Shown in pieces: positions 7,131 through 62,417 of a stretch of 64,000 nt of DNA. Position 1 is the stretch's first letter. Every line of letters starts with the position of its first letter. The stretch is from Turnera subulata. Lineage: Eukaryota; Streptophyta; Magnoliopsida; Malpighiales; Passifloraceae. The notes beneath the pieces were generated by a model, which worked only from the letters and a program-made list of their open reading frames with translations, searched no databases and was not told the DNA's origin. A program made the translations under genes and the position numbers. The stretch covers positions 5,837-69,836 of the forward strand of contig JAKUCV010007187.1 in assembly GCA_028386065.3 (NCBI GenBank), written 5' to 3'.

Positions 7131-9078
7131 TGATGTGGTCAATCCTGCAAGTGCACAGAATCATCGTGGTACTCAAGGTCGTATCCACAGAGACTAGGCA
7201 AGATATTAATCGATTCAATCTTATGGCAAAGAAAATAAATGAAGAGAAATAATATCGAAATTAAAGATTGATAAGAGAGCAAATATCGAATTGAATTGCA
7301 AAAGAGAAGAGAAAGTAGAAATGACAATGAAAATGATAAACAAAGTAGCAATGATAAAAGGCCTAGATCATTCGGGAATTCGCCGCCCTTCCTTTGCCAT
7401 GGATCAATGTACTATTGAAAGCTGCATCCAAACACATGAATTTTGATGGGTAGCAACCTATAATGAAACTATCCGCTCTCGCTAGTCTAGTTTCATCTCA
7501 AAGAGTCACCTAATCACTTTCGTCAATTAGATTACCTCTAGGAGCAATGAAGCTTGTTGTTGCTACTGAATCCACAATAACCTAAACCCTCTCAGCATTT
7601 AGATTAAAGATGATTGATGATTTTCGGATAATAGACTTCTCCTCTCGGTACTTCACCTATTACCTAGAAGTTGCAAAAAGCTGGCCACTTCCTTAAAGCA
7701 ATAAATAAGCTCACAACATTCAATCAAAATTACTTTGTGAATGAATTGCAGCAAATGGTACATCAAACCATAGCAAATTTAGGGTAGGCTACATCCCTAT
7801 GATCTAGAATGAAAATTTAGTACATGAATGAACTTGGAACAACAAATGAAAATGGGAAAGACTTGGTTTCCTCACAACAATCTCAAAAGAAAATGAAAGG
7901 AACAACAACTTAACCGAATTTTTTTGTTTCAAGGTGTGTTTTCAAGGTGTCTCCTTGTGTTGCTTCAGCTCTCACTCTTTTGTAGTGCTTCTTCACTAGT
8001 TGGACAGCTTGGAGATGACATATTTTAGTGTCCTTTAGCCACCAAAATCGTGCTGGAATGGGCCACAATGTTGAAGGCATTGCTGGTGGAGTGGTTGCAA
8101 GGTATAGGTTGCCACTTGCTTTTCCAGCCTAGCATGAATATTCCTTCTCTTTTGCATGTGCTGATGGATGAGCTTTCTTTTCAGGAATTTATGTTGGTTT
8201 CTAGGCTGTTTTATTCTCCTTGAATGGCTTCGAGGTCTTCAAGTTTGATTATCCAACAAAGCATGTGCTTCTGGTTGACATGATGCTCTTCTAGAAGGGG
8301 ACACATGGTTGGCAACATATGACCTGAGAATTGCAAGTACTTTTGGCACCCTTAGAAAGCCGAATTGGGCTTAGAGATATTCTACAAAGTTGTAGATAAT
8401 TCTTTTATCTTTCCGTCCATATAAAGAACTCCTGATTTGGACTTGTGTAGTGGGAGTTATGATAAAAATACTGAGACTGGGTCCTTGGCCAGTGCAGAAT
8501 TCCTGCACGTATGCAAGTTTGGGCAGAAGGTTTAAACATCGATGTTTGAAAGCACAACATCGATGTTTGATGAATTTCAGCATGTCCAAATTTGGGCAGA
8601 AGTCTGAAACATTGATTTTTTGGTATTAAAACATCGATGTTTGGTGAAAATACGTTCCTAGAAGCCTTTCAACATCGATGGTCAGGATGTCCAACATTGA
8701 TGTTTGATGGAGTAAATTGAATTGATAACTGCTCCTAATCCGTAAGGCAAAAAATTATGAACTTTATATCACTGGAAAGCTTAGGATGTCTACTTTCATC
8801 TCCAATTATTTTCATGTTAACTGGACATCCGAAGCTTCTAAAATCAGCAAAGAATGAACTGTGCTCAAGTTTCTGCCCGGTTTCCAGCTTTGGCCGAAAG
8901 TGATCGTTTTCGGTAGCGAAGTGGGACGATTTTATACCTGAAAGTGTAATTGTTAGTTAAATCAATTTACTAAACAATCAAACAAACAAAGATAGGTAAA
9001 ATGTATGATTTTTATTCAAAATAATAATAACAAAGAAGTTTTCATGCCTTTAATACTATGTGAAATATGTGCATATCA
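7131..9078 (-). mobile_element. Solo LTR, Athila-like, carrying AACATCGATGTT copies
   Basis: Begins TGATGTGG and ends GCATATCA (inverted TGAT/ATCA) and is flanked by the perfect 5-bp duplication AGAAT (7126-7130, 9079-9083). The integrase frame of the host element continues across the site (HGGE before, DNLVFNH after), which confirms the boundaries. The segment TCCTGCAAGTGC and the following GGTCGTATCCACAG also occur at the start of the Athila LTRs at 13560 and 30790, so it is a related family; strand is given by that similarity. At 8533-8710 it holds three exact and about three diverged copies of AACATCGATGTT. Confidence 0.9.
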
Positions 9079-9397
9079 AGAATTTGATAATCTTGTCTTC
9101 AATCACTTCTGTGAGCAAAGTGGCATAGTCCACACCTTTTCGACTCCTAGAACATCAGATCAAATTGGGGTTGTAGAAAGGAAGAATCAAACTTTGCAAG
9201 AAATGATACCCCATAAGCTATATGCACATTTCTGGACATAGGGTGTGAACACAGAATGCTAAATTTTAAGTAGAGTATCCATGCGTCCTTTGATTAAAAA
9301 GACACCCTATGAGGTATGGTTTGATAAGAAACCAAATTTGATTACTGTCGGATTTTTGGGTTTAAATGCTATATTCTAAATACAAAGGATAACCTGG

Positions 9398-11176
9398 TAT
9401 GAGTACCCGGCCTAAAATTCATTGGGCTGACTCACCTTCTTCTTCTTAACCGTCATCCACATCTTTGGAGTCACCATCCAAATTTTATTTTAGGGAAAAA
9501 TTCAGGGAAAAACCTTTCTTAGGCAACCGATTAGCGAACCAAAGATGTGGACCCGGGGGTTCGTCACGGATGGGAAGGTGTTAGGCACCCATCCATGTTT
9601 GGGCGAGATCATGTGCAATTAGAGATTGATATATGCCAAGCACAACAACATAAACAACAATCATAAACAGAGTTGAAAGACAAAGCAGAAAATAAAATAA
9701 GATTCAACTTGCGTTTCAAACCACTGGAAACTGCCTACATACCACCCCCTATCATGGGTTCAAAGCTCACGTAGTTCTTAATATGCATCACATGATATCA
9801 CAGCATCAACATCAAAAATTCATCACAGCAGCAATCAATCAAGAGCATTAGAACGAGTTACCTCTTGTAGCCCTCCTCTTGCTCCTACTTGCTTACCACT
9901 CCATAGTAAAAATTTGGCAGAAATTCAAACTGAAATTCGGGGTAGAAACAAGATGAAAAGGTATCTGGTGTCAAAAGAAAACTTGTAGCTCTTCCTCTTA
10001 GCTTTCCAGGGACTATAATATGGCAATTCTTCTGGGACTGCCTGCACAGGAATTCTCTACTCGGGTTCCTCCTTTCTTCTCCACAAGCTTGCTCCAATCT
10101 GCCTTCTTCTTCTCCTTCTCTTGCTCTCCTCTTGCTACTGCCTTGCTTCTACTCTCCTCCACAAAATTTCTCCGGAATTTCATCCCTTAAAAGGGTTAAT
10201 AAGCTTAGAATTAGAGAGTTATTCTAAGCACCTAAGCTTATGTGTGTATAGAGGGGGAAGAGAGAAATTCTGTGTCTATGAGGGTGAATGGGGGGGTCCT
10301 ATTTATAGTATTTAGTGCGTCTAGACGTGGTGTTGATCTAAGGGTCGGGATTGAATCCCTAGATCCAACGGTAGATACCCAGAATCAAGTAAACAATAAA
10401 AATCTAGAAAACTACCGAAACTGGGAGCGATGTCCGCCAAACACCGGCGGTCCTCTTGCGACGATTGCCAGGTGCTGGCGGTCATCTCTCAAAGCATGCA
10501 TGGTGCTGGTGGTCATGTCTCCATGTCCGGCAGACATGTCCCCCAGCACCTATTTCCATTTTCATTCTTTCCTTTTCGGTTTTAATCCTCATTATTCTGC
10601 TCCAGCTTGATTCCCACGCCCTTCCCAATCTGTTTTTTTGCCTATTTTAAGCTCCAGAAAACCTCTTAACTTGTAGCCTATCCCCACCTCTTTCCTATTT
10701 TCTTTTCTTTCTCTCCACTCCACTGTAATTACCATAAGTCGCCAAACACGAATAAGGGAATAAATTAATCTGAATTTTGGACAAAAATTCAGATTTAGAG
10801 TCCTCTAGGTTCACTATTTTTTATGGGCTAAAAATACTAGAGGGTCCATATTTCATTAGTCTAGATTCTTATTTATTTTAAAACTCAAAATCATCTCAAA
10901 TGGGTCCAAAATAAACAATAAGCCTAAATATAATAAAATACTCATATTTTTATTAAATTCAGACCTTAAATATATTAAACTCAGAATTAAATCATCTCAA
11001 TAATTCCAAGCTAAATACAAAAAAATCCAAAAATAATAAAAATATTAATATTTCACTAAATTAAACTATAAATATATTTCATCCTAGGATCAAATCATCT
11101 CATTAATCCACAGACAAAAATACATTTATAATCCAATAAAATGCAATATTAGTGGGTCAAATTTTGAGTGTTCACA
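9398..11176 (+). repeat. 5' LTR of gypsy 'family O' copy 1 (1.78 kb)
   Basis: Starts TATGAGTACCCGGCC (first dinucleotide TA, not TG, as in the copy at 33553) and ends GTGTTCACA. It matches the LTRs at 33553-35110 and 38446-40009, sharing TTCGTCACGGATGGGAAGG and GTGTTAGGCACCCATCC near the left end. The following internal sequence resembles that after 40009, so this is a 5' LTR. Expected left target duplication is CCTGG (9393-9397); the other side is missing. At 10430-10550 it has the CCGCC..GGCGGTCAT palindromic phrases typical of this family. Possibly Tat/Ogre, by LTR style only. Confidence 0.75.
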
Positions 11177-13559
11177 GATGTCCCTTGTTGGTGAATCTTT
11201 AGGAACTGAAGATAAACCAAACGAAAGGAAGAACATCCAAATTTGATAGAGTAGGTATTAATGCTGATGCCGACATATGTGCCATGAGTCGAGAATCATC
11301 TCATCTCGGGGTTTTAAGGATTTATCGTTCTCCTTAGGGGACTCGGTTTGTGTTTATGATAGAATCATCTCATCTATCTGGCGCCAAAAAAGAATCCTCT
11401 CATCTCGGGTAACTAGTGATACTATCGTCCTCCCTAGGGTACTTGGTGTTTGGTTTGGTAGAATCATCTCAACTACCAGGTTGTTAACAATGAATCTTCT
11501 CATCTCAGCTAACTAGGGATACTATCGTCCTCCTTGAGGTACTCATTGTTTGGGTTGTCAACAAAGAATCATCTCCTCTTAGTCAACTAGGGATATGTCT
11601 CCTCCTATAAGGGTAATTTTAGGGTTACCTACTTTCTAGGGATTTTATCGTCCTCCCCTGGGGAACTCGGTGTTTGTCTTGGTTGTGGGAATCATTTCAT
11701 CCCTCCCATGGTATCACATGTCTTCTCACTAGCCATCAACAGATCTCGGGGCATTACATATCCCAAAGAAAGTCATCTACAGCAATAGGGTCCATTCCCC
11801 TGGAATTTAATTCAGAACGGGGTAGCATGGCCCACAGATTGATTCAGAACAAGGTAGCATGCCCCAAGTAGGTCTCATCGACACATAGAGTAGCATGCCT
11901 TGGGAAAACCAATACATGGGGTAGCATGCCACGGAAATCATACTCGAAGGAACGAGGTAGCATGCCCCAGCAATTGATTCAGAACAGGGTAGCATGTGCC
12001 AAGTAAGTCACATGGGGTAGCATGCCCCGGGAAAATCAATACATGGGGTAGCATGCCCCAAAAATCATTGTTTAGAGGAATTGGGTCGCATGCCCTGGAA
12101 AATCAGAATACGTCAAGGGGTACCATGCCCTGGAAAACTGAAACACATCGAGGAGCAGCACGCCCCAATAGAGCAGAACATATGTAAGGGGTAGCATGCC
12201 CCGAGAAATTACACAAAACGAATGGGGTAGCATGCCCAGAAAACACGTCACATAGCGGGGTAGCATGTCTGGGGAAACAAGTATATCACATAATGGGGTA
12301 GCATGCCCCGGGAAACAAACACGTCACATAATAGGGTAGCATGCCCTAGGAAACAAACACATTACATAACAGGCCCCGAGAGAACACTCCAAACCAATGT
12401 GGTAGCGTGCCTCAGAAAAGTAAAACATGTACAAATGGGATTGTATATCCCGGAATAACAAAACATATACGAGGGATAGTACGCCCCAAGAAACAGAACA
12501 CAAGGGGTAGTATGCCCTAAAAAATCGACTAACAAACGAGGTAGCATGCCCTGAAAAATTGACTAACAATTGAGGTGGAATGCCTCGAAGATAAAAAATC
12601 AAACAATCGGGGTAGCATGCCCCGGGAAACTTTGACTCAAAATATGGGCCCGCAAAAGGGAGGAACAAACATGCTAGGGGCGCTAGAGGTCATCTCTGGA
12701 TGTCAGCCAGAGTCTGGCGGTCATGTCGAGATGTCCACCAGAGGCTGGTGGTCTTCTCGCCATGTCCGCCAAGCCCCCAGCCGGTTTTAAAACCTCAAAA
12801 AACTGCTCTCTCCTCTTCATTTCACTCCAAACCCCTTAAAACTCACTTGTTTTCCTCTCAAAACCTCTCAACCAACTCACAATCTCTTCCCCTTCTATTC
12901 CAAATCAGCTTCATTCCTTCATCGTCATCAAGCATTCATAAATCAAGGTAGGATATAATGAGGAAGTGGCACCCAAAATCCAATCCGAAGGATAATCCGG
13001 CAATATTGCTCAAATCCCCTGAGAAGCACATCTCTTCAAAGCTTCCTCAAGTGCAAGTAAATGATTTTCATCAATCAAAACTACTCCAATTGTGATTTCA
13101 ATTTATTTTTAGGGTTATGCCCAATTTCTCCATAAATTCAAATTTATGCAATGTCTGGTGTGTTTGATTATTTGAAAATGCTCCTAGTATATCTACAATG
13201 CTTTCCCCTATGCTTATTTTCTGGATTAAACACAAGAATTGTTGGATTGATGAAATACCCAAATGGGGGTTTACGGTTCTTGGCGAAAATTGGTGATCTT
13301 GGTTGATCTTGCTGTTATTTTGATGTTTGAATTGTACATTCTCAGCGTACAATCGGTAGGTGTTGATGGGTTTGTGCCAATTTCGGTCAATTTTAAATTT
13401 CACTAGGACGGGTTTTGTGATTTTCTTGTGATTTCATCTGCAAATAAAATGTCGTTCTAATGCCAGAATGCATGAGATTTTGGCGCAAATTTATTCCCAT
13501 GATGCATGTCTATATGAATGCGGAGTTGGTTCGACTTGTTTTGGCCTGGTTTAGTGTGA
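11177..13559 (+). mobile_element. Non-coding leader of family O copy 1, with arrays
   Basis: Starts GATGTCCCTTGTTGGTGA, homologous to 40010 onward. No gag or pol coding is visible. It contains a repeat of GAATCATCTCATCT-like phrases (11285-11710) and an array of GGGGTAGCATGCCCC-like phrases (11815-12625). Then come palindromic CCGCCAGA..CTGGCGG phrases (12690-12775), a pyrimidine-rich stretch (12800-12950), and unassigned sequence to the Athila insertion at 13560. No canonical primer-binding site was found just after the LTR, which is odd for an intact element. Confidence 0.6.
11815..12625. repeat. Array of GGGGTAGCATGCCCC near-palindromes
   Basis: About 20 phrases of the form GGGGTAGCATGCCCCGGGAA recur at irregular 35-50 bp spacing, separated by short AC-rich linkers (AAACAAACACATCACATAAT-like). 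The core GGGgtaGCATGCCCC is nearly self-complementary. Variants include GAGGTAGCATGCCCT, GGGGTACCATGCCCT and GGGTAGTATGCCCT. The second family O copy has GGGGCATGATGCCCC-type phrases in the matching leader position. Confidence 0.8.
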
Positions 13560-17308: not shown

Positions 17309-17506
17309 AGGTCCTCTCCCCGAGGGACCCACCATATTCAAGTATTGTTACATTTGGTGAAGGTGCTCTCCTTGAGGGGGATAAAAAGCATCACGTCCCG
17401 AGTTCGAATCCCTAGTGCTGCAACATGGTAAAGGATTTAATCGGGCAGAGGGAGTGATGTAACAATACCTGGATTTGGTGGGTCCCTCGGGGGAGGGCCT
17501 TCACAT
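17309..17506. mobile_element. Foldback MITE copy with tRNA-like B box
   Basis: A left arm (GTCCTCTCCCCGAGGGAC, then CCACCATATTCAAGTATTG) is the inverse of the right arm ending CTCGGGGGAGGGCCTTCAC. Between them is the unit starting TTGGTGAAGGTGCTCTCC with GAGTTCGAATCCC, which matches the Pol III B-box consensus. It is the same family as the cluster at 20019-21287. It lies within the 3' part of Athila copy 1 pol. No clear target duplication. Confidence 0.75.
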
Positions 17507-17703
17507 AGAAGAACTTCCCTGACAAATTTCTGACTTTATGATTCCTCCCTTCATCGAATTGCAACACTTGATAACAAAACACACAAAGGAAAACGGAAAG
17601 AACAAAATGAAAGAAAATAAAAGAAAACTTGAAAATTACCACACTTGGTTTTCCCAAGTGCGTGCTTCTTTTACGTCTTTTAGATGGACACTTTTCCATT
17701 GTT

Positions 17704-18174
17704 CTAGTTGGGAGGTGGATTTTGGCGAGGTTGAATCTCACTGAAAACGCCCATGGTAGGGTGATAAATTTTCAACCTTCTTCGATGGGCTATGAACGGG
17801 CTCAACCCGTCACCATCAATCTCTATTTCTCCATGAGGCAAACAATGAAGAATAGTAAATGGACCAGACCACTTGGATCGTCTTGTACCCCAGAAAAGGA
17901 CTTGGTCTTCCTTCTTGAAAGCGCGCTTGATGTTTTGACCATTGTGCCTTTTTATGGTTCTCTCCTTGCAAACTATGATGTTCCCGTTCATATCCAAATG
18001 CACTTCATTCAATTCTGGAGGGAGAGGTTTTATCTCAGTATTTGGTGTAAAATCATCAGCTCCCATTTGATTGATAGGCAGCTGCTGCTGAACAGCCTGG
18101 TGGACAGGCTGGGCCTGTCTTGGCTTATCTTTGTCGTCGACAGTGTCAACCTGGCAGTAGGTGCTGAAGTTCAA
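17704..18174 (-). pseudogene. pol: Athila copy 1: linker fused to integrase C-terminus (RT and most of INT deleted)
   Basis: The minus strand reads linker RQAQPVHQAVQQQLP, then PPELNEVHLDMNGNI, then abruptly CKERTIKRHNGQNIKRAF and KKEDQVLFWGTRRSKWSGPF. In copy 2 the PPKLRYIYLD block is followed by the region leading into RT. KEDQVL..KWSGPF is the integrase C-terminal region near the end of Athila pol. RT, RNase H and most of integrase are therefore missing, with the junction near 17980. RLKIYH closes the pol. The TTG at 18174 is not a real start: the frame continues from the upstream protease frame through a TAA. The QAQPV linker is encoded by the family's palindromic motif. Confidence 0.8.
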
Positions 18175-18189
18175 ATCTGACTTAGGGGC

Positions 18190-19200
18190 TTAGAGCATAT
18201 TGAAATTCATCGTATTTTCTCCAACTCTTAGTGTCACCCTTCCTTCCTCAACATCAATCAATGCCCAAGCCGTGGCAAGAAAAGGGCATCCTAAAATGAT
18301 AGGTGTGTGGACATCCAATGCCATATCTATGACCATAAAATCAACAGGAATATAAAAATCACCAACCTTCATGGGCACATCCTTTAATACTCCCACAGGA
18401 TACACAAGTGAGCGGTCAGCAAGTTGGATTGTCATCCTTGTGGGCTTGATGTCTCCAAGATTCATGTCTTGAGTGAAGGATAGTGGTAACAGGCTGATAC
18501 TGGATCTTAGGTCAGATAGGGCTCCTTCAATCTTCTTGTTCCCAATATGACAAGGTATTGTAAAGCTTCCTGGGTCTGAATATTTTCTGGGTAGATGGTG
18601 TTGAATGAGAGCACTCGCTTGGGCTGTCATAGCTACAGTCTCAATATCATTAATGGTTCTCTTCTTTGTCAAAATATCCTTCAGGAATTTAGCATATAAA
18701 GGCATTTGTGTGACCACATCACTGAAAGGCACATTGACATATAACTTACTCAGCATTTCTTTGAACTTATGGAATTGCTTCTTCAACTTGGATTTGTGGT
18801 ATACTTCTGGGTATGGGAGAGGAGGTTGGTAAGGTTGAACAGTTTGGGGCTGTTTCTTAGCTCTTCTAGTACTAACAGGCTCGGGCACAAGCTCAGCCTG
18901 TGTCTGCACTGTCTGTCCAGAGCTGGATGTCGAAGCTTGTTGTTCGGTTCTCTCCACAGCCTCAGACGGTCTTGGCACTGTGTCTCTTAATTCTCTCCCA
19001 CTGTGAAGGATCATAGCATTGCAATGTTCAATCCTTGGATTCTCTATTGGTTTTCCTGGAAGAGCTCCTGGTTGACCAGTGGAAATAGTGGCTTGTTGAG
19101 CATTCTGATTCTCCAGGATTCTATTGTAGGACTTGAGTTGACTAATCTCCTCGCTCATTTTATTCTGGTTCTTCAGGATGGATTGCAGCTTGCTCATCAT
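18190..19200 (-). pseudogene. Athila copy 1: gag tail and protease
   Basis: Aspartic protease region of an Athila-type gypsy element. Reading on the minus strand: heptad-like NKMSEEISQLKSYNRILEN, a linker with TQAELVPEPV, KFKEMLSKLYVNVPFSD (typical Athila), then the protease core EGALSDLRSSISLLPLSF. The active-site triplet, D-L-G in copy 2, is D-L-R here, so this protease should be dead. TRMTIQLADRSLVYPVGVL, VPMKVGDFYIPVDFMV and PIILGCPFLATAWALIDV follow in family order. A TAA ends the frame at 18190. Confidence 0.85.
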
Positions 19201-19562
19201 GTCAGAGTTTTTGCCTTGCTGTCCTCCTTGATTCTACCTCTGGTACTGAGGCTGTCCTCCTTGGTTCTGTCTCTGGTACTGGGCCTATTGTGGAATCCTC
19301 TCCTTGGTTGATCCCTTCTAAGAGAAGTTTGGGTGGTTCCTCCAGGATGGATTGTAAGTGTTTCCATGCCTGCTTCTGCTGGAAGTAGTGAGCTTGTTTA
19401 GAATCACATTCAGCAAAGAGTGGCCAACTGGAAGTACCATGAGGTCCTCCACAGCCCTCACAGTCTGGGACTGTGGCTGAGGCTATCTTGACTTGAGCAA
19501 CCCCTAGTTGCTTTCTGAGGGTTCTTTCTCTGCCTCTAGCTTGGTTACTCTATCTGCAACAA

Positions 19563-20018
19563 TTATTCCAGAGGATTTGACTCTCTAACTTGGGTCTTTC
19601 TCTTGGACAGGGCTTCAAGAATGGCAACTCCATTATTGTAGTCCTTATCTTGGAATGCACCATTGGCCATCTTGTCCAAGGTGTTCTGGTCTTCATCACA
19701 TAGGCCGCAATAGAACTGCTCAAGTTGCACGGCCTCATCAATTCGGTGGTTTGGGCATCTTCCTAGTTGTCCCTTGAAGTGTTCCGAAGCATCTCGAATT
19801 GATTCATCATAGCACTGGGAAAAACCAATAAGCTGCTGCCTTAAACTTGCAGCCTTGCTTGATGGATGGTATTCCTTCAAGAAAGCTCTGACTTGGCTGT
19901 CCCAGTCAGTGAAATGGCCTGCTTCATGGTTGTTGAGCCATTCGAATGCCGCTTCCCTGAGTGAGAATGGGAATACTCTCATGTATAGCTGCTCCTCGGT
20001 CATCCCTTCTATGTTCAC
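19563..20018 (-). pseudogene. gag: Athila copy 1: truncated gag core
   Basis: The minus strand gives GMTEEQLYMRVFPFSLREAA, FEWLNNHEAGHFTDWDS, VRAFLKEYHPSS, then ESIRDASEHFKGQL and FYCGLCDEDQNTLDKMANGA. This is the retrotransposon gag core also seen at 29672-30496. It lacks everything before the STINIAGM position because the foldback cluster begins there. Downstream, frame breaks separate it from the gag tail, where QYQRQNQGG repeats are recognisable at about 19200-19290. Confidence 0.85.
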
Positions 20019-21287
20019 TGTGAAGGCCCTCTCCCCGAGGGTCCCACCATATTCAGGTATTGTTACATCACTCCCTCCGCCCGATTAAATCCTTTACCAT
20101 GCTGCAGCACTAAGGACTCGAACTCGGGACGTGATGCTTTTTATCCCCCTCAAGGAGAGCACCTTCACCAACTCAGCTGCAGATGAATTGGTGAAGGTGC
20201 TCTCCTTGAGGGGGATAAAAAGCATCACGTCCCGAGTTCGAATACCTAGTGCTGCAGCATGGTAAAGGATTTAATCGGGCGGAGGGAGTGATGTAACAAT
20301 ACCTGAATATGGTGGGACCCTCGGGGAGAGGGCCTTCACAGAAAAGGCGCCTTTTTTTGTGAAGGCCCTCCTTCCGAGGGACCCACCAAATCCAGGTATT
20401 GTTACATCACTCCCTCCGCCCGATTAAATCCTTTACCATGCTGCAGCACTAGGGATTCGAACTCGGGACGTGATGCTTTTTATCCCCCTCAAGGAGAGCA
20501 CCTTCACCAATTTACGCCCGATTAAATCCTTTACCAAGCTGCAGCACTAGGGATTCAAACTCGGGACGTGATGCTTTTTATCCCTCTCAAGGAGAGCACC
20601 TTCACCAATTCGGGATTCGAACTCGGGACGTGATGCTTTTTATCCCCCTCAAGGAGAGCACCTTCACCAATTCATGAATTGGTGAAGGTGCTCTCCTTGA
20701 GGGGGATAAAAAGCATCACGTCCCGAGTTTGAATCCCTAGTGCTGCAGCATGGTAAAGGATTTAATCAGGCAGAGGGAGTGATGTAACAATACCTGAGTT
20801 TGGTGGGTCCCTCGGGGAGAGGGCCTTCACAGAAAAGTTCGAATCCCTAGTGCTGCAGCATGGTAAAGGATTTAATCGGGCGGAGGGAATGATGTAACAA
20901 TTCCTGAATATAGTGGGTCCCTCGGGGGGAGGGCCTTCACAAAAAAAAGGCGCCTTTTTTGTGAAGGCCCTCTCCCCAAGGGTTCCACCATATTCAGGTA
21001 TTGTTACATCACTCCCTCCGCCCGATTAAATCCTTTACCATGCTGCAGCACTAGGGATTCGAACTCGGGACGTGATGCTTTTTATCCCCCTCAAGGAGAG
21101 CACCTTCACCAATTCATCTGCAGTTGAGTTGGTGAAGGTGCTCTCCTTGAGGGGGATAAAAAGCATCACGTTTCGAGTTCGAATCCCTAGTGCTGCAGCA
21201 TGGTAAAGGATTTAATCGGGCTGAGGGAGTGATGTAACAATACCTGAATATGGTGGGACCCTCGGGGAGAGGGCCTTCACACATGGT
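20019..21287. mobile_element. Cluster of inverted foldback/MITE units with tRNA-like B box
   Basis: About nine full or partial copies of one ~150-bp unit alternate in orientation. Plus-strand order: reverse (20020-20170), forward (20188-20340), reverse (20359-20510), two partial reverse (20515-20608, 20609-20671), forward (20679-20830), partial forward (20837-20939), reverse (20960-21111), forward (21129-21281). The unit starts GGTGAAGGTGCTCTCC and ends GAGAGGGCCTTCAC, near inverted termini, and contains GAGTTCGAATCCC, a Pol III B-box match. Head-to-head junctions centre on CTGCAG and tail-to-tail junctions on AAAGGCGCCTTT. The cluster ends are inverted repeats of each other, so the whole can fold into one hairpin. 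It joins Athila gag to Angela RT without a target duplication. Confidence 0.85.
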
Positions 21288-24196
21288 TCATCTTCATTCT
21301 TAATGAAACCAAACTCTTTGATTACTTCATTAAAACGAAGATTCCAACTCCTAGAAGCTTGCTTCAACCCATAATTGGATCTTTGCAACTTGCATACCAT
21401 ATTAGCATTCTCTGGATCGACAAAACCTTCAGGTTGTGTCATGTACACATCCTCTAAAAGATATCCATTTAGGAAAGCGGTTTTTACATCCGTCTGCCAT
21501 ATCTTATAATCATGGTATGCAGCTATTGCCAACAGAATCTGGATGGATTTAACCATGGCAACTGGTGAGAAAGTTTCATCATAGTCTATACCATGAACTT
21601 GTTTGAAACCTTTCGCAACCAATCGCCCTTTATAGGTAATCACATTACCATCCATGTCGGTCTTTTTCTTAAAAATCCATTTGCACCCTATGGGTTTTAC
21701 CCCTTCGGGTGGATCAACCAAGGTCCATACCTTGTTTTCATACATGGATTCCATTTCCGAATTCATGGCTTCTAGCCACTTCTTGGAGTTCGGACCCGTA
21801 ATGGCCTGCTGATAGAAAGTGGGCTCATCCTCATCTATGAGCATCACATCTCCAGTATGAGTCATAAGAAATCCATATCTCTCAGGCTCATACCGAATCC
21901 TATCCGACCTACGCGGTCTATGTGTTATAGGTACAGGATTCTCATCCACAACATCTTGTGGTTCCTGTCCTTGTTCCATCTCAGCCTCAATATCTCGAAC
22001 TTTTTTGAGTTCTATTTTTCTCCCACTGATTCCTCTAGAAATAAATTGTTTTTCTAGAAAAATAGCAATCCGAGCAACAAACACTTTGTGGTCGGTGGGA
22101 TTATAGAAGTAATACCCTTTTGTTTCCTTAGGGTATCCTACAAAGATGCACTTCTTGAATTTAGGGCCGAGTTTATCTGATGCTTCACGTCTCACGTAAG
22201 CCTCACAACCCCAAATCCTCATAAAAGACAAATTGGGACTCTTCCCAGTCCATATCTCATATGGTGTCTTTTCGACCGATTTAGATGGAACACGGTTAAG
22301 TGTAAATGCAGCACTCAATAATGCATGTCCTCAAAATGAAGAAGGAAGGTCAGCTTGACTCATCATAGAACGAACCATATCTAATAAGGTTTTATTCCTC
22401 CTTTCAGATACCCCATTCCATTGAGCCGTACCTGGTGGAGTAAGTTGTGATACTATACCACATTGCTTTAGATGATCAAGAAACTCTCGGCTTAAGTATT
22501 CACCCCCTCCATCAGATCGAAGCATTTTAATACTTTTACCGAGTTGATTCTGTACTTCATTCTTGAATTCTTTGAACTTTTCAAAGGATTCTGACTTGTG
22601 TCTCATAAGATACACATAGCCATATCTACTGTAACCATCAGTAAATGTAATGAAGTATTGAAAAGCACCTCTAGTCTGTGTAGACATAAGTCCGCATACA
22701 TCAGAATGTATAAGACCTAATAAGTCTGAAGCTCTTTCACCTTTACCAGTAAAGGGAGCCTTCGTCATTTTGCCCAACAAACATGACTCACATGTCTCAT
22801 ATGATTCAAAATCAAATGAGTCTAATAGTCCATCTTTATGGAGTTTAGCAATACGAGTCTCGTTTATATGGCCCAAACGACAATGCCAAAGGTAGGTTTC
22901 ATTAGAATCGTTCATTTTAACCTTCTTCGTATTAACGTTATAGATTGGCGTTTTTAGGTTTAGAATATACAAACCATTGCTCAAATATGCACCACCATAA
23001 TAAATATCATTGAAATAAATAGAACAACATTTGTTCTTTATTACAAATGAAAAACCTTTCTTGTCCAGACAAGAAACAGAAATCAAATTCTTGCTTATGG
23101 TAGGTACATAATAACAATTGTCCAGTTCTAAGACCAAACCACTCGGTAAGGATAGATAGTAAGTTCCTACGGCTAATGCAGCAACTCTTGCTCCATTTCC
23201 GACGCGTAGGTCTATCTCACCCTTCGCCAATCTCCTACTCTTTCTTAGTTCCTGCACATTCACACAAATGTGAGAACCACTTCCGGTATCTAATACCCAT
23301 GATGCAGAGCTAGAGATATTAGCTTCTATAACGAAAATACCTGAAGTGGAAGTCTCACTTCCCTTCTTTTTCTTTACCTCTTCAAAGTAAAAAGGGCAGT
23401 TGCGCTTCCAATGGCCCGGTTTGTTGCAATGGAAATAATGTCCTTCCTTTGCAATACCACCCTTGGGTTTCAGCACGTGGTCACAAGAAGATGCACATGC
23501 ACCAAACTTTTTGGCACATTTCTTCTTCTTGTTGAACTTTGCTTTACCCTTTCCTTTGCCTTTTCCAATTATCAAAATGTTGGATTTGTTTGCCCTCATT
23601 TGTTGCTCAGCTGTTCCCAACATGTTAAGCAACTCAGACAATGATTTGTCAAGATGATTCATATTGAAGTTCATGACAAATTGGTTGTAACTGTCCGGCA
23701 ACGATTGCAGGACTAGATCAACCGCCAACTCCTTTTGCAAAGGAAAACCAAGACCCTCAAGGCTCTCAATGTAACTAATCATTTTGAGCACATGAGGTCT
23801 TACGGGTGATGACTCTGCCATCCTGCATTGGAACAATGCCTTAGAGGTCTTATACCTCTCATGCCTTGCTTGCTCATCAAAGAGCATCTTTAGGTGTTCG
23901 ATCATATCGAACGCCCCCATGTTCTCATGTTGCTTCTGAAGCCCAGATTCCATGGCTATTAGCATAAGACATGCGACATCCAATGCATCATCAAGATGCT
24001 TCTTGTAAGCATCCCTTTCTGCCCTAGGAGCATTAGGCGCCGGTTCAATCGGAACAGGCCCTTCAAGGACATACAACTTCTTTTCTTGTTTGAGGACAAT
24101 CCTCAAATTGTGATACCACTTTAGGAAATTATTCCCATTCAGCTTTTCCTTCTCAAGGACCGATCGCAATGATAGTGTACCTGTGTTTTGTGCCAT
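21288..24196 (-). pseudogene. gag-pol: Angela/BARE-like Copia gag-pol, truncated in RT
   Basis: The ATG at 24196 opens a gag-pol reading frame of about 970 codons with one stop: a TGA at about 22330 in SF(W)GHALLSAAF. Order: gag (LSLRSVLEKEKLNGNNFLKW, BARE-1/Angela style); zinc knuckle YFHCNKPGHWKRNC, first Cys changed to Tyr; protease SWVLDTGSGSHICV; pre-integrase YLWHCRLGHINETR and CESCLLGK. Integrase has HSDVCGLM, RSDGGGEY and GVSERRNKTL (D, D, E). RT has WIFKKKTDMDGNV, RLVAKGFKQVHGIDYDETFS and QTDVKTAFLNGYL. It stops at KNEDEPCV where the foldback cluster begins, so YVDD, RNase H and 3' LTR are lost. The element sits inside Athila copy 2 RT. Confidence 0.93.
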
Positions 24197-24718
24197 GGTA
24201 GCTCTACAACAAAGATCAACTCACACAAATAAGAGTCATGTATACATAAATCATTTAACAGGGAATTCTATTAAATGATGCTCCTACTATGAAAACAAAA
24301 TAATCATGAGTAGGCCAAGATCCATATTTCACTACAATATAAGTCAGCTTTGGCTAATCGTCTATATCATAGCTATTTAGGTAGACAACTCTTGTCAATT
24401 ACATCTCATGTAACTCTTGGATAGTTGAGCGAACAACACTTGTTCTTGTCTATCTCATAGACATTACTCAACTCCTTGCCTCTAAGTCCTTAATCCTATT
24501 AAGATGACCTAGTTAAGTCCAAACCCACAATAAGCAGTTCAGATATTACAGTTATCCAGTCGCACCTTGCTAGGATAAACATTGGCACCTTGCTTTAGCA
24601 AAAACTACCCAAGTGTTGATCTAAGCAATGATGAGTGCATATCATGGAAGGCAACTAAGAACTTAATATTTACATCAACATATGTTCATACATCACATGC
24701 ATATAATCAACAATTCAT

Positions 24719-25500
24719 ACATTGATGTTTTGTAAATTTGGAAACCAAAAATACATGTGAACATCGATGTCTAACTTGAACATCGATGTTTTGAGAATCT
24801 GATTCTCCCAACTACTTGGCAGCACTCAATATTTTGGCCATATCCAGAGCTGTAGAGCTCGGTTTGGTGCAATCTTGGTGTCTCTGGAAAGCTAAGAAGT
24901 AGTTCTACAACTTTACTGTTCAGACCAGACACCAATTCGGTCTCCTTCTACCCCGAATTCGCTGTTGAAGTCACTAGATTCTAGGACATCGATGTTTAAC
25001 CCTTAAACATCGATGTTTGAAGTTTGCGAATCCATATAACATCGATGTTGACAATCAAACATCGATGTTGGAGGTTGCCAAACCCTCAGAACATCGATGT
25101 TGACAATCAAACATCGATGTTTGAGGTTGCCGAGTGCATAAAACATCGATGTTAACACTTAAACATCGATGTTAACACTTAAACATCGATGTTTGAACTT
25201 CTGGAACTCAATAACATCGATGTTGGAAACTTGAACATCGATGTTATGAGAGTTCTGGAACTTCAAACCAATTTGGCCGAGCTTAAATAACATCGATGTT
25301 GTAACCCTTAACATCGATGTTGTTGAGTGTTTTGCATGAGAACATCGATGTTGGTCACATGTTGTGTGAAGATTCGGCCGAGGCTAAACTTCATCAGAAC
25401 ATCGATGTTTGTCACACAACATCGATGTTATGAAGGTTCTGCCAAGGCTAAACTTCATGCCAACATTGATGTTGGTCTCACCAACATCGATGTTATGGCC
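24719..25500. repeat. Array of 12-bp palindrome AACATCGATGTT (about 17 exact copies)
   Basis: By eye, 17 exact and about four one-mismatch copies (e.g. AACATTGATGTT, GACATCGATGTT) lie in about 780 bp. Dense stretches are at 24988-25200, where copies are 15-30 bp apart. Linkers are diverse but include repeats such as GGTTGCCGA, GACAATCA and AACACTTA. It lies in the leader between PBS and gag. The same palindrome occurs in solo LTRs of other families (8533-8710, 36380-36800). Confidence 0.95.
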
Positions 25501-25785: not shown

Positions 25786-25798
25786 GGCTCCGCTACCA
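25786..25798 (-). promoter_or_regulatory. Primer-binding site of the Angela-like element
   Basis: The minus strand reads TGGTAGCGGAGCC one base after the LTR end. It is close to the initiator-Met tRNA complement TGGTATCAGAGC used by many Copia elements. The same TGGTAGCGGAGC string is next to the Tekay 5' LTR (54028-54040) and at 33408. Confidence 0.65.
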
Positions 25799-35470: not shown

Positions 35471-36069
35471 ATGACTAAAGAGAAGCCACCTCTTGGAGAA
35501 AATCTACAAGAGACGAGTGCGACCACTACTCACGGGACAAAATCGAAGCAAGGGGACGACCCAAAGCAAGATGGAAAGAAGGCTGCTGATCCGAAGGAAA
35601 AGGTTGACAGGGGCTGATCCAAGAGTAGGGGTCCAGCGAAGATGGGAAATCCGACTGTAGATGCTGCTATTTTGATCCTTCAACAATGCTTTGAAAAGAT
35701 TCAAGGACGGTTGAATGGCCTCGTGGATAGAGTTGACGAATGTGAAGCTAGCAGTGAAGGTAGAACGGATGAGGTTCAGGTGCTAAGACAACAGCTCACA
35801 GATCTTAACATCGAAGTGAATGAAGGGTCTCAAACTCTCAAGGAGGAGTTTGACAAGCTAAAAGCATCGTTCAAGGGGCGATCGCTGAATTACAAGTACA
35901 GATTGATGTGCTGTCAAAGCAACTTGATGTGGAAGGCCAAGAGTTAAGAGAACTGAAGGCAGGGAATAAACACATGGAGGAAGAATTGGCTCTATGTAGG
36001 AGAGCACTTGCAAGTGGCGAGGGAGGTGCATCTACACGCGCACTACCGAAAATTGACATACCTAAGCCA

Positions 36070-37439
36070 TGTTAGAAACAATGTTTTGCTAATGCCTCCT
36101 TGTCTCATACAGGTTTTGATATTGACAAACCGGACATTGATTCAAAATGACGACAAACCCGAGGCAAAAAGAAATCACTCCCAAAGCAAAAATAAATGAC
36201 TCAAAGAGAAGAAATGCAAAGTGAAAAAGAGCACAAGAATTGAAGCACAAGAAGATTTAGGAACCTAATTGTAAAAGGTTAACACTCAAATTCTTCTAAG
36301 ACGTTAGGTCAAACATAATCATTTTTTTCTCATGCATAGCATTTTTTTTATCAATCATAAAAACGGTTTTTGAGCACTAAACATCGATGTTATGTTTCTA
36401 AACATCGATGTTCCTGACTTCTAAAAGGTTTATCAAAAGCGACAGTAGCTCAAAACATCAATGTTGGCATCCCAAACATCGATGTTCTCCTGACCGATTG
36501 CATTTCAAGATGTTTTGCAGAAACACTGTTCAAACATCGATGTTCATTTTCAAACATCGATGTTCTACTGTTCAAACATCGATGTTCAAAGTTTAAACAT
36601 CGATGTTCTATTGTTCATTATTTTAAATTGTTTTGGCAGTGCTCCAAAACATCGATGTTCAAGTTTAAAACATCGATGTTTTAGTGACCGTTGGACCAAA
36701 ACATCGATGTTTAAGTTTAGAACATTGATATTTTAGTGACTGTTGGCCCAATAATTCATATTTACTGGCCAAACATCGATGTTCTAGTGCTAAACATCGA
36801 TGGTGTGCCGTTTTAAGCAGAAACCTTTTGCATCTTTCTATGTTCTTTTTTCTAAAGGTGTTTTGGAATGATTCCCCAACGGTCATATAAGTTTTTAGAC
36901 ATATAAATAGAGCATTTACACCTCTGTTTATTCACAATCAACTCTCCATACATTTATCATTCATTGATACACATTCATTCAAGTTTTTATGAGCTAATAT
37001 CCTTGAGATTTGAGAGAGTTGCCTTATAGTGCTTATCTTGTTACTCAACATCCACTCTTTGAGAGAGTTTCTATTTTGAGTGTTGTGAGTGTTGTTGTAC
37101 ACTTGAAGGGAGGTTTGTTCCCTTGTTGTGATTCATAGGAAGAGGGTTTTCTTTCTGTGGAAGTGAGGTATCTTCAAGCAGGAGTGTTGAGGTTCATGTG
37201 ACTTGAACTCTCAGGTTGTAAACGGTTTGTTAAGCACCCGAAAGCTTATCGTAGATAGTGAAATCTTCGAGAGAGTCTCTCGGAGGACTAGATTAGCCAC
37301 ACAAGTTGTGTCTGTGAACCAATATAAAATTCGGTGTGTCCTTCATTCTTTCATTTCCGCAATTATTTCCTGCAAGTTTTTGATTTTGTCCATAAAACAC
37401 TATTCACCCCCCCTCTAGCGTAGGGCACCTATTCTAACA
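36070..37439 (+). mobile_element. Solo LTR, SIRE-like Copia, with 11 AACATCGATGTT copies
   Basis: Begins TGTTAGAAACAATG and ends CTATTCTAACA (termini TGTTAG/CTAACA), flanked by the perfect 5-bp duplication AGCCA (36065-36069, 37440-37444). Host gag reading continues across it. The 3' end TATTCACCCCCCCTCTAG is typical of SIRE-type LTRs. The TATA box is TATAAATA at 36902-36909. Upstream of it, at 36379-36800, lie 11 exact and three diverged AACATCGATGTT palindromes, often paired about 20-25 bp apart. The palindromes are therefore in U3, upstream of the promoter. Confidence 0.93.
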
Positions 37440-38208
37440 AGCCAAATATCTATCATGGAACGCGAGTGCCTAAGGAGCTTGACATTTTTTCTGCTCACTG
37501 TGAATCAATACTTTGCAGGAGTACGAATTACGAATGAGGACCAAAAAGTGCAAATTGATTCTAGGTACTTCAAGGATGCTGCTATACTTCGCTGGAAACA
37601 AAGATTAGAGACCTTCGAGGTGGAAAAAAAGAGGCTTTCATGGGTCGAGTTTGTAACAGAACTCAAAGCACAGTTCTACCCCAAGTATGCTGATAGGGAG
37701 GCGAGAAGGAAAATGCACAACATTAAACAGGGGGACAGTATTCGGAAGTACGTGAAGGAGTTTCAAGAGCTGAAGTTTGAGATTCTATGCATGCCAAATT
37801 ATGAAGCATTTGACATATTCGTTGGAGGCTAGCAAGATTGGACACAAATGGAGGTCGATAGAAGCGAGGTTGAGGCCTTGGACGATGCTATTCGAGTGGA
37901 GGAGCAGGTTACAAGGGAGACAAGCTGAAGAGCTCTAATCACGAGGATGGTGATTCTAAAAGTGGTGGAGAGAAGGCTAACTTCGGGAGTTATACATCAT
38001 CAACAAAGTCAAGTGACACCAAATTTGTGGGAGGAGGCAAAAGTGATGATAACAAACCGTGGGAATGTTTTCTGTGCAAGAGTCCACACAGTGTTCACGA
38101 TTGTCCAAAGAAGCAAAAGCTTGCTACGGTAGTGAAACACATTGAAACAGAGGAGCAAGCCCAGAACAAGCAAGGAGGTGGGGTCAGAATGGCACCACTA
38201 GAAAGACT

Positions 38209-54040: not shown

Positions 54041-54043
54041 AAA

Positions 54044-58929: not shown

Positions 58930-59072
58930 TAATTGTAGATAGAGCAGAGTTTATCATTAGTGTGTAACAGCAAAACATCAAGGTGTGTGACTAGGAGAAA
59001 GGGGCGCCGACCTTTGTTAATAGTTTGAAAAAGCAAAACGTTGAGGGATTCCCTGACCTAGAAGTTGTTACA

Positions 59073-60278
59073 ATGGGAGCAGCGAACCTCAGATTACCAT
59101 CCGAAATTGTGGAGGAGATACTAGCGCTGTTACCTCAACAGTCCATTCATCGATTTAGGTCCGTCTCCAAGTCATGGTCGTCTTTGTTGGTCAGTGTAGA
59201 GTTCCACAAATTGAGATCCAGGTCGTCACCCCCCGAGATTACCGTCCAAAAACTCCTACATAATTACTTTAAGAAGTATCCTGATGGTGCCAATCCAACA
59301 GGCCATCGTGGTCTTGGATCATTAGATTTTCGTAACGGCCAAAGTAAGAATGACGAGGTATGGTTTCCAACAGCAAGAGATCAGGTTGTAGGATTTGTAG
59401 GATCATGCAATGGATTAGTTTGTGTAACTCAACCTGCAGGACTTGACCACCTTATTAGGGACATTACCGTGTGGAATCCTTTTACCGGTGTCTGTAGAAA
59501 ATTGCCAAACCCTGAATATACATCAGCTCCTGATGATTACGGTTTTGGACATGATTCGGTCCGTGAGGATTATAAGGCTGAACCTGTTGCTAACGGTTTT
59601 GGACATGATTCGGTTGGTGATGATTATAAAGTGTTTGTAGCCGCACATCGCCCTTATGCTCCCGCTCGGGAAGTTGAATTTCAAATCTTCTCTCTGAAGG
59701 CAGGTTCCTGGAGAAAGTTGGAAATTCTTAGCGGATACTTGCAGCGGCTGCAGCTGATTGAAGAAGGGGGGAGGGGTCTGTACTTGAATGGCGCACTTCA
59801 CTGGGGAAGTAGGTCCGGTGAGAAGATCATTGCTTTTGATTTGGTGGAGGAGAAGTTTTCTGATGTCCGAGCCCCAGTTTTGGAGGATCAATCTTATGAA
59901 CATGTTAGCATGGGAATTGTTGGAGAATATCTGTGTATGTGTTGGCGTACAATGGGAAAGAAGATTGTTTGGATGATGAAGGAATATGGCAACTGGGTTC
60001 CTTTCATCCAGTATAGTGAGTTAGGACTTTTTGGATCAGGCCTTGTTGAATATGAGTGCAATTTCATACCCCCTCGCGGCGGATACATGATGCTCTACTT
60101 CCGTTTATATGGGGGGACGGCAATACTCCAATGGAGTAATAATGATGGAGAAGCTGATGCAGTGGATCAGGGAGGCAGAAAGCGCTGTATGTTTTACGAA
60201 AAAGGTTCATGCATCCCCTATACAGAAGCTCTCACCTCTCCCTACCCAACTGCTAGTGAGGTAGATTTCCGAACATGA
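59073..60278 (+). CDS. F-box protein with FBA domain (401 aa)
   Basis: Likely substrate receptor of an SCF (SKP1-CUL1-F-box) ubiquitin ligase; its target is unknown. The start is ATG 59073 (ACAATGGGAGC); the open frame runs further upstream only without an ATG. F-box at about residues 6-46: LRLPSEIVEEILALLPQQSI then RFRSVSKSWSSLL. The FBA (F-box-associated, type 1/3) domain follows: VVGFVGSCNGLVCVTQP, ITVWNPFTGVCRKLPNPE, FQIFSLKAGSWRKLE, LYLNGALHWGSRSGEKIIAF and DLVEEKFSDV. Length is normal for the family. Unusual: a 54-bp tandem repeat makes GFGHDSVREDYK (residues 157-168) and GFGHDSVGDDYK (175-186), with AEPVAN between, where the family normally has one such strand. No stop or frameshift, and no introns are needed. 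Confidence 0.9.
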   Translation: MGAANLRLPSEIVEEILALLPQQSIHRFRSVSKSWSSLLVSVEFHKLRSRSSPPEITVQKLLHNYFKKYPDGANPTGHRGLGSLDFRNGQSKNDEVWFPTARDQVVGFVGSCNGLVCVTQPAGLDHLIRDITVWNPFTGVCRKLPNPEYTSAPDDYGFGHDSVREDYKAEPVANGFGHDSVGDDYKVFVAAHRPYAPAREVEFQIFSLKAGSWRKLEILSGYLQRLQLIEEGGRGLYLNGALHWGSRSGEKIIAFDLVEEKFSDVRAPVLEDQSYEHVSMGIVGEYLCMCWRTMGKKIVWMMKEYGNWVPFIQYSELGLFGSGLVEYECNFIPPRGGYMMLYFRLYGGTAILQWSNNDGEADAVDQGGRKRCMFYEKGSCIPYTEALTSPYPTASEVDFRT

Positions 60279-60389
60279 TTGAATTAAAAACAAAGGAAGG
60301 TTTAACAAGTCAAATAGGTGGGTTATAAGAACCTAGTCCTGGCATTTTAAAAAAATTTTGGCTTTGTACTGAATATTTGGTTCTATACA

Positions 60390-60551: not shown

Positions 60552-60991
60552 GAGCCGGATCCTAGGATTTTTCATATTGCCGTAACTCTATTGCTAGTTT
60601 TGTTTGAATTACTTGTTTTCGGCATACACTTAACCAAAATATTTTGGGCCTGAGCTTTGACTAAATGTTCATACCAACAGTAACAAACATTTGTGGCCAA
60701 TCCGTTGCCTAGCTCCTTAAACTTGAGATAATTAGCAGAAAGAAATAGAAAAAAGAATTGTGTAAGTATAAAAAAATTTTTGGTGTTGTTGAAGGCTGGG
60801 GTGGAAGCTACTATATCAAGTTGGCTGCTTGGGATACGGTAAGGTGGTCTTGGTGTCATAAATTATTGAAGTATAGCTATATATATACTAGTAAGACAGC
60901 AATTTCTTCCCATTCAGCCATTTCCATGGAGATTTTAATACGCCATATTTCTTTTTTTCTTCTTTTTTTTTTCTGAAGTTTAGTATGAAAG
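60552..60991. other. Intergenic DNA, no feature seen
   Basis: No coding or repeat was recognised apart from a T-rich run at about 60950-60972. Confidence 0.4.
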
Positions 60992-61570: not shown

Positions 61571-61969
61571 AACCCCTCTCTACGCAAAAAGTTGTCAACT
61601 GTTTTTGTGTTGAATATAATAATTTCACCTACAACACAAATTTTTATTTAATTTTGAAACCTCTCACAATTAACTAGGCGACATCGCGGTGCCCTTTACT
61701 GTAGCCATACTCACAACACTTGATTTACTACACATAATATTAAAACCCTAACACACCTATTTATAGAGACTTTGACTTAACGGATAAGACATGACTCATA
61801 AATCGAACCGGGCTTGGACTCTTAAAACCCAATAATATAAAAACTGTCAGACCCATTAAAACTAGCATAGTTTAATATCCAACAAACTAGCATAGTTTAA
61901 AAAGAGGGAAGTTCAATGGTCTATTCAGATTCACTAGGCAGTTATTTTCTCCAGTTGCATACTACTGAT
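61571..61969. other. Intergenic DNA with short duplicated phrase
   Basis: No gene is seen. The phrase AACTAGCATAGTTTAA is repeated at about 61859 and 61885, separated by TATCCAACA. It is followed by sequence leading into the LTR fragment. Confidence 0.4.
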
Positions 61970-62417
61970 AAAATTCATATTTACTGGCTAAACATCGATG
62001 TTGTACCGTTATGGTCTGATACCTTTTTTAACTTTCAATGTTATCTTATCAAAAGGTGTTCAGAAATGTTTTCCCAACACCATATAAGTTTTCAAACTTA
62101 TAAATAGAGGTGTTAAACCTCTCTTTGCAAAGAATCAACTCTTCATACATTAAACATTCATTGATATACATTCATACAAGTTTCTATGAGCTAATACCTT
62201 TGAGAATTGAGAGTTGCCTTATTGTTCTTACATTGTTCCTCAATATCCACTCTTTGAGAGAGCTTTTGTTTTGAGTGTTGTAAGTGTTCTCATACACTTT
62301 AAGGGAGGTTAGTTCCCTTGTTGTAATTCATAGGGAGAGGTATTCTTTCTGTGTGAGAATTCTTGAAGTGAGGTATCTTCAAACAAGATTGTTGAGGTTC
62401 TTGTGACTTGAATTCTG
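61970..62417 (+). repeat. Fragment of the SIRE-like LTR family
   Basis: Homologous to 36750-37215: shared AATTCATATTTACTGGC, AACATCGATGTT (61991-62002), a TATAAATAGAG box at about 62099, CATTCATTGATATACATTCA and GTGAGGTATCTTCAA. It stops after GTGACTTGAATTCT, short of the LTR 3' end. No target duplication was found, so it is a truncated remnant. Confidence 0.8.

Follow-up and report, generated by a model that had tools for sequence, protein, structure and literature searches.

What could lead retrotransposons of different superfamilies in one plant genome to carry the same short palindrome in arrays? The question arises in a 64-kb stretch of Turnera subulata DNA (contig JAKUCV010007187.1, positions 5,837 to 69,836; hereafter, the window), in which the perfect 12-bp palindrome AACATCGATGTT occurs 32 times exactly. 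Dinucleotide shuffling gives a mean of 0.02 copies and a maximum of 1 in 100 shuffles. The exact copies fall in four places: 3 at 8535-8641, 17 at 24779-25494, 11 at 36380-36783, and 1 at 61991. A first-pass annotation had reported about 32 exact copies, a chance expectation far below one, and this same 3/17/11/1 division, and our counts reproduce all three. When up to two mismatches are allowed, the window holds 47 copies against 3.2 expected. Our reading, to which we assign a probability of roughly two in three, is that the arrays are operator arrays near promoters, read by a predicted dimeric DNA-binding protein common to the carrier lineages, together with a partner.

One palindrome in five groups of elements

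The genome-wide count that the first-pass annotation proposed reveals enrichment far beyond the window. Specifically, the assembly (518.7 Mb in 7,125 contigs, the window included) contains 76,101 exact copies of AACATCGATGTT, versus 63 of the reversed pattern, used as a control. For orientation, the available part of the T. subulata draft genome report gives a size of 674.8 Mb and a Copia content of 17.73% (PMC9862265). The copies are clustered: in a sample of 20 stretches (171,590 non-N bases) spaced evenly along the contig numbering, 3 hold 53 copies and the other 17 hold none. No other 12-bp palindrome with at least three different letters behaves comparably in the 251 kb compared: AACATCGATGTT is present 96 times, and the runner-up twice. 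Across the copies from the window and the additional loci examined (L-numbered below), strict conservation is confined to the 12 bp of the palindrome, and the flanking columns are mixed. Viral contigs, examined as an outside control, yielded one contig with a motif pair (locus L042). The exact 12-mer also appears in two papers, one about the glucocorticoid receptor and one about the modelling of protein–DNA complexes. The pattern is real, genome-wide, and very strong.

The commonest one-mismatch variant in the window and loci, with strands merged, is AACATCGATGTC (40 occurrences), which may be a functional variant of the palindrome. The variant expected from CpG decay, AACATCAATGTT, is rarer, at 23.

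The carriers in the window are as follows.

7131..9078, minus strand: W1, a 1,948-bp Ty3/Gypsy solo long terminal repeat (LTR) with TG..CA ends
8535..8704: W1 array, with exact motifs at 8535, 8556, and 8630 and decayed ones at 8608, 8671, and 8693
21215..24220, minus strand: W2, a Copia element with gag and integrase at 22334-24220 and reverse transcriptase at 21215-22330
24718..25494: W2 array, in the leader from the primer-binding site to the gag start; it comprises 17 exact motifs at 24779-25494 plus several decayed copies
25786..25798, minus strand: primer-binding-site-like TGGTAGCGGAGCC, read directly, adjoining the W2 LTR end
36070..37439, plus strand: W3, a 1,370-bp Sirevirus-type solo LTR
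36380..36804: W3 array, comprising 11 exact motifs and 2 with one mismatch
61987..62416, plus strand: W4, what remains of a W3-type LTR, at 81% identity; its single exact motif is at 61991-62002

W1 is flanked by a perfect 5-bp target-site duplication, AGAAT, at 7126-7130 and 9079-9083. Its insertion site is a decayed Copia integrase (the 6731-7099 and 8996-9238 region); the first of these frames matches rve below its cut-off, the second matches no Pfam family, and both resemble the W2 Copia protein. From 487 candidates, 40 copies of the W1 family were scored, including that of the window, and five contigs among the scored copies bear two copies on one strand, 8.6-12.2 kb apart. A stop-free Gypsy frame (RVT_1, RT_RNaseH) lies between two W1-type LTRs. 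Because this frame is opposite in strand to the LTRs, the W1 sense strand is the minus strand. The first-pass annotation likened W1 to Athila and W2 to Angela, both putative labels. The W2 frames contain the Pfam domains Retrotran_gag_2, gag_pre-integrs, rve, and RVT_2, and 40 copies of its leader family, again including that of the window, were scored from 3,340 candidates. W3 has an AGCCA target-site duplication (36065-36069 and 37440-37444) and a C7 run at 37407-37413, near the LTR end. In locus L011, a W3-related LTR is followed by a primer-binding site and a Copia gag.

How separate are these carriers? BLAST comparison of the window and loci with the motifs masked resolves five groups. 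The first consists of Sirevirus-type LTRs (W3, W4, L001, L006, L011, L013, L043, L048-L050, and L052), which the arrays L044 and L051 join via L006. These two arrays are env-side by position; L051 has a weak Transposase_32 match below its cut-off and L044 has none. The second group is the W2 leader plus L031. The third, a further Copia group (L025-L030 and L045-L047), possesses a DUF4219/Copia-type gag frame and carries its array within the LTR, downstream of TATA. W1 alone and L053 alone form the fourth and fifth groups. The L053 array follows a primer-binding-site-like sequence; in the adjoining L054, three frames held no Pfam domain, and the one frame searched had no homologue. The sole masked similarity between groups at E 1e-6 is a 30-bp match (93%) between L051 and L053, and W1, W2, and W3 display none among themselves at that threshold. 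With motifs unmasked, W2 and W3 align at 68-70% over 200-280 bp because of the motifs themselves. Few 8-mers are common to three groups, each with at most six occurrences in all.

Sirevirus hallmarks are unevenly distributed among the carriers. W3 and L011 have the polyC signal, as a C7 run; for W2, L025 of the third Copia group, and L053, the one 640-705 bp stretch inspected in each around the LTR end contains no C run longer than four. The junction CA/ATTGG occurs in L011, L025, and L028, whereas W2 and L031 have CA/GTGG instead. In L011, the relative of the solo LTR W3, CA/ATTGG is followed by TAGCGGAGCC, to be compared with the Sirevirus primer-binding site TATCAGAGC (PMC2829016, in the part available). 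The W2 gag has no similarity to that of L011 at E below 1, and the L025 gag reaches only E 0.42. The clear non-Sirevirus carriers are therefore W1 (Gypsy) and W2, whereas for the third Copia group a distant relationship to Sireviruses is possible. The first-pass annotation's view that the carriers belong to different families and superfamilies holds: W1 is a Gypsy LTR, W2 a Copia leader, and W3 a Sirevirus-type LTR. As an aside, primer-binding sites that read TGGTAGCGGAG are found in L011, L028, L031, L053, and at 25786-25798 of the window, in place of the TATCAGAGC of Sireviruses according to PMC2829016.

Spacing, a second motif, and constraint

The copies within arrays keep helical register. 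In the first pooled set, comprising all pairs up to 150 bp apart, the best period was 10.50 bp when periods of 6 to 30 bp were scanned (R 0.69, n=292). Removal of similar spacers reduced 326 adjacent spacings to 121, and 113 of these deviate by no more than 2 bp from a multiple of 10.5 bp, where 38% would be expected if spacing were uniform. The register recurs group by group, with R at 10.5 bp equal to 0.77 for the Sirevirus-type group (51), 0.78 for the leader group (39), 0.82 for the third Copia group (22), 0.94 for L053 (7), and 0.99 for W1 (2). Along its sense strand, W1 shows spacings of 22, 41, 22, 52, and 21, with a weak TTTATATGG about 110 bp past the last motif. Pairs counted across the assembly follow the same rule in the three spacing classes covered: 30,184 exact pairs are 20-22 bp apart (reversed control 15), 21 are 25-27 bp apart (control 0), and 3,666 are 30-32 bp apart (control 1). 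In the literature searched, we found no description of helical register for such motifs in LTR elements.

A second motif, TTGGCMG, accompanies the palindrome at a near-fixed distance. Among 50 unique spacers, 11 of the 24 occurrences of GGCMG start exactly 14 bp ahead of a motif, distributed as 4 of 12 in the Sirevirus-type group, 5 of 7 in the leader group, 2 of 4 in the third Copia group, and 0 of 1 in W1; the unique L053 spacers contain no GGCMG. In 2000 trials with rotated spacers, the mean at the 14-bp offset was 0.55, and no offset ever collected more than 5. Across the assembly, TTGGCMG lies at a gap of 9 from the motif 6,500 times (3,271 + 3,229), compared with 1,596 (785 + 811) for gaps 4-8 together, where gap 8 accounted for 97 of 100 rows inspected by eye, and 158 (86 + 72) for gaps 10-14 together, where the rows inspected were mostly gap 10. 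Within the window, W2 has the gap-9 form twice; W3 has the gap-8 form, and W1 has it with one mismatch:

8520..8546, plus strand: W1 composite, TGGGCAG-N8-motif, with one mismatch to the second motif
25273..25300, plus strand: W2 composite, TTGGCCG-N9-motif
25418..25445, minus strand: W2 composite, TTGGCAG-N9-motif
36633..36659, plus strand: W3 composite, TTGGCAG-N8-motif

When one mismatch to TTGGCMG is allowed, 54 of 235 motif pairs have it on one side, 180 on neither, and 1 on both. A 65-bp symmetric double composite, considered as a general unit, was rejected on that single case among 235 pairs.

The motif sites also change more slowly than their surroundings in the family in which this was measured. 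Ten W2 leader copies were taken from the 40 scored, and one, 98% identical to the window copy, was dropped. In the remaining nine, the 17 motif sites show 1.27% changes per base versus 2.43% in matched windows, namely the 491 other 12-bp windows, of 681 eligible, that passed the same filter. Omission of CpG positions leaves 0.73% versus 2.23%, and in 5000 draws of 17 windows no value as low as that of the motif sites arose. Motif sites in the W2 leader family therefore mutate less than matched windows.

The arrays have regular positions relative to candidate promoters within groups. In six of seven Sirevirus-type LTR pieces (W3, L001, L013, L043, L048, and L050, some of which hold other TATA-like matches), 95-97 bp separate the end of the last motif (at most one mismatch) from a TATA-like match downstream; in W3, this motif has one mismatch and ends 97 bp upstream of the TATA at 36902. 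In the seventh piece, L006, no TATA-like match was found. L011, L049, L052, and the first L006 array stood outside this comparison. The env-side L051 array ends 83-84 bp before a TATA-like match, and no TATA was found for the env-side L044. In the third Copia group, the nearest TATA-like match instead precedes the first motif, by 182-210 bp, in all nine pieces.

Sites like CCAACGGTCA stand beside the motifs in Sirevirus-type LTRs, for example in L001 and at 36684-36750 of the window. We take them to resemble the plant mitosis-specific activator (MSA) element. As a common feature of the arrays, the MSA-like YCYAACGGYYA was rejected, being present in 2 of 11 arrays, both of the Sirevirus type.

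Other repeats occur outside the AACATCGATGTT arrays. A near-palindromic motif, GGGGTAGCATGCCCC, is arrayed at 11815-12640 in a different element, with GGTAGCATGCCC present ten times exactly in the window; this array is possibly a second system of like kind with another motif. Repeats with near-palindromic pieces are built on GGTCATCTCGAGATGTCC at 12688-12771 and on GGCGGTCAT/ATGACCGCC at positions 1-150 of L001. At 5639-6771, beside the decayed Copia, lies a 1.1-kb inverted repeat, 88% identical to its own reverse complement and resembling a miniature inverted-repeat transposable element. A segment of 150-320 bp is repeated many times, nested and in both orientations, at 17354-21281. The contig of the window and contig C6575 have in common the W2 leader (98%), W1 (93%), and an identical copy of the rare 25-27 bp pair, perhaps as a segmental duplication or as the other haplotype. 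One further gene feature is recorded:

58995-60275: F-box gene; its nearest relatives apart from itself are 69-70% identical and come from Turnera subulata, as do all 71 matches listed after its own

Readings of the arrays

What could hold one 12-mer in place across such different elements? A perfect 12-bp palindrome would be the site of a symmetric DNA-binding protein, probably a homodimer. Adjacent copies lie whole helical turns apart (about 21, 31.5, 42, 52.5, and 73.5 bp), so that dimers bound to them would occupy one face of the DNA and could make contact. TTGGCMG, 8-9 bp from one palindrome per pair, would be read by another protein or by another domain of the same complex. On this reading, a single factor would be needed by the Sirevirus-type Copia elements, the other Copia carriers, and the Gypsy elements of this genome alike, and each lineage would have acquired and kept sites for it; the factor would most likely act in transcription or help elements to escape silencing in some tissue. 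What is computed directly from the DNA is the copy number, the spread over lineages, the register, the near-exact geometry, and, in one family, the constraint. We infer the binding protein, its dimeric nature, and an activating or anti-silencing direction. The first-pass annotation had offered either a palindromic micro-repeat comparable to those of bacteria or a shared binding or dimerisation site. A binding site is the best reading, and the bacterial-style mobile palindrome was rejected: the copies keep helical register within arrays and, with the second motif, a near-exact geometry, an arrangement suggestive of a regulatory array, and the 53 sampled copies are confined to 3 of 20 stretches, whereas an element of that sort would be expected as separate mobile units scattered one by one over many unrelated sites.

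Several observations weigh against operator arrays. The position of the array varies, being upstream of TATA in Sireviruses but downstream of it for the third Copia group and inside the leader for W2, so a strict promoter rule fails. The copies that gave the TATA distances are relatives by descent, and those numbers are not independent. The exact gap-9 TTGGCMG accompanies only about 4% of motif strands (6,500/152,202), gap 8 and, rarely, gap 10 occur too, and the 14-bp offset of GGCMG is seen in none of the unique spacers of W1 and L053. Moreover, TTGGCMG was spotted in the same data; the assembly-wide controls, run afterwards, are a fresh test. Finally, the constraint test concerns one family, the W2 leader, and homogenisation could account for part of its effect.

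The alternatives tested (ALTERNATIVES) were RNA hairpins, nucleosome phasing, tandem growth, and common descent of the arrays. In one version of common descent, the array would have arisen in a single lineage, perhaps a Sirevirus, and a piece of it would have reached other LTR elements through template switching or recombination, after which the spacers diverged and the sites were kept. The near-exact TTGGCMG geometry of three Copia groups, together with a gap-8 form that W3 has and that the Gypsy LTR W1 has with one mismatch, would be much to evolve repeatedly; the masked 30-bp stretch unites L051 and L053, and the repeated motif is called Sirevirus-specific in the available text of PMC2829016. 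However, nothing else is similar among the five masked groups at E 1e-6, the 8-mers found in three groups are few and none exceeds six occurrences, and the arrays occupy different parts of the elements. We regard transfer from a single origin as possible but somewhat doubtful. A related and broader proposal, that unrelated LTR lineages (Gypsy, Sirevirus, and other Copia) converged on or exchanged one multi-part operator that constitutes a genome-wide regulatory code, we hold tentatively, at a little under an even chance.

The direction of any regulation bears on a further alternative, in which the arrays are targets through which the host silences LTR elements, and persist via inheritance of silenced copies or through benefit to the host. 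A host factor common to all elements would explain the spread over superfamilies, and an activator and a repressor look alike at the level of sequence. Yet purely harmful sites should be lost from replicating families. The one family tested instead shows fewer changes at motif sites than around them, and 40 copies could be scored for W1 and another 40 for W2. We consider host repression unlikely. Quite unlikely, in our judgment, is a function in RNA, with neighbouring palindromes forming hairpins in element transcripts for packaging, for dimerisation, or as a source of small RNAs. All five example pairs that were folded do form a 12-bp stem with a short loop, and the available parts of PMC5311732 and PMC10760457 describe maize Sirevirus palindromes as small-RNA hotspots. 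However, among 249 pairs spaced 18-23 bp apart in the window and loci (L032, which repeats W2, and the one pair of L042 are included), both arms are exact in 155, one arm is changed in 82, and both are changed in 12, of which only 2 remain complementary. Hairpins, moreover, need neither the 10.5-bp register nor the gap-9 rule, and the arrays vary in position between 3' and 5' parts of the RNA. DNA bending or rotational positioning of nucleosomes, by AA..CG..TT every 10.5 bp and independent of any sequence-specific protein, agrees with the AA/TT ends and CG middle of the motif and with spacing that tracks the helical repeat. Such a general pattern requires neither an exact 12-mer 76,101 times nor TTGGCMG at gap 9, and 57 unique long spacers lack 10.5-bp phasing of AA/TT or of A/T-only steps; we deem it very improbable. 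Hardly credible at all is functionless, satellite-like growth by slippage. Some arrays do contain tandem units of 20-72 bp, and array size varies between copies, but the spacers of a given array are largely distinct (12 of 15 in W2, 8 of 10 in W3, 13 of 17 in L013, 19 of 21 in L006, and 11 of 15 in L031), the register and the 12-mer hold despite those distinct spacers, and the identical 12-mer resides in unrelated elements.

Published parallels and significance

In part, the arrays belong to a known type of feature. Specifically, the portion available of Bousios et al. 2010 (PMC2829016) describes Sirevirus repeated motifs (RM boxes) that are palindromic, possess dyad symmetry, number 8-32 copies per element, and lie in the LTR upstream of TATA and, in env-bearing elements, also upstream of env. 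This description supplies a plant system of the kind for which the first-pass annotation knew no example, and the Sirevirus-LTR part of the present pattern is, on the same account, a new member of a kind already known: the LTRs listed above for the first group fit the LTR component, and L044 and L051 resemble the env-side one. The C-rich signal near the Sirevirus LTR 3' end is likewise found in the W3 group, as the C7 runs of W3 and L011.

Other attributes match that description in part or depart from it. W3, with 11 exact copies, and W2, with 17, reach the RM minimum of eight copies, whereas W1, with three exact and three decayed, does not. Arrays of the Sirevirus-type LTRs lie upstream of TATA, in contrast to those of the third Copia group and the W2 leader. 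RMs are called Sirevirus-specific and absent from classic Copia in the text available, whereas here the identical motif occurs in the Gypsy LTR W1 and the Copia W2. As described there, RMs mostly differ between elements and have a CGG-CCG core, with Tnd-1 as the exception; the core here is ATCGAT, and the tobacco Tnd-1 palindrome, ACAATCGATTGT, is similarly ATCGAT-centred (PMC2829016). The Tnd-1 motif itself is in none of the 55 loci examined. In the same portion, the authors state that a common site for a single binding factor was not identifiable, and neither helical register nor a fixed-distance second motif is mentioned.

The nearest functional parallel is provided by the targets of VANC proteins in Arabidopsis VANDAL transposons, which, in the sections available (PMC5735166, PMC10398659), are short motifs clustered in noncoding transposon parts; VANC6 motifs exist also in AT9TSD1, an element unrelated to VANDAL (PMC5735166). 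The present arrays are alike in being clusters of a short noncoding motif that recurs in unrelated elements. They differ in that the VANC motifs, YAGTATTAY and AGTTGTMC, are not perfect palindromes and the DNA transposons concerned encode the protein, whose binding goes with loss of DNA methylation. In maize, the LTR cis-region of Sireviruses is described as containing palindrome clusters with the motif CACCGGACNNNGTCCGGTG, read in terms of secondary structure (PMC5311732, PMC10760457), and the same palindrome is reported as the most abundant motif in structured regions of Helitrons (PMC10760457), a hint of sharing across superfamilies. The T. subulata motif is different, and helical register is not part of the maize descriptions as far as those texts were available.

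Repeated cis-elements of plant LTRs are partly symmetric activator sites. To our knowledge, each of them, including Tnt1 box I, is limited to one element family. The present arrays resemble Tnt1 box I as repeated, partly symmetric sites in LTR elements, and that box is cited as a repeated cis-element of a plant LTR in the available part of PMC2829016. Three properties go beyond the descriptions we found. The identical motif is shared by different groups and superfamilies, its copies keep helical register, and it forms a composite of near-exact geometry with TTGGCMG.

These findings shift the motif from a Sirevirus peculiarity to a property of several retrotransposon lineages in this plant. The register and the composite geometry together supply a precise, testable footprint for a putative common binding factor. 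If the genome-wide code proposed above is correct, one protein complex on the operator would set the timing of element transcription or the escape from silencing. Other plants would then use other palindromes, each a species-specific "password" read by one fast-evolving factor. Identification of the protein would reveal how the retrotransposons of one genome are jointly activated or hidden.

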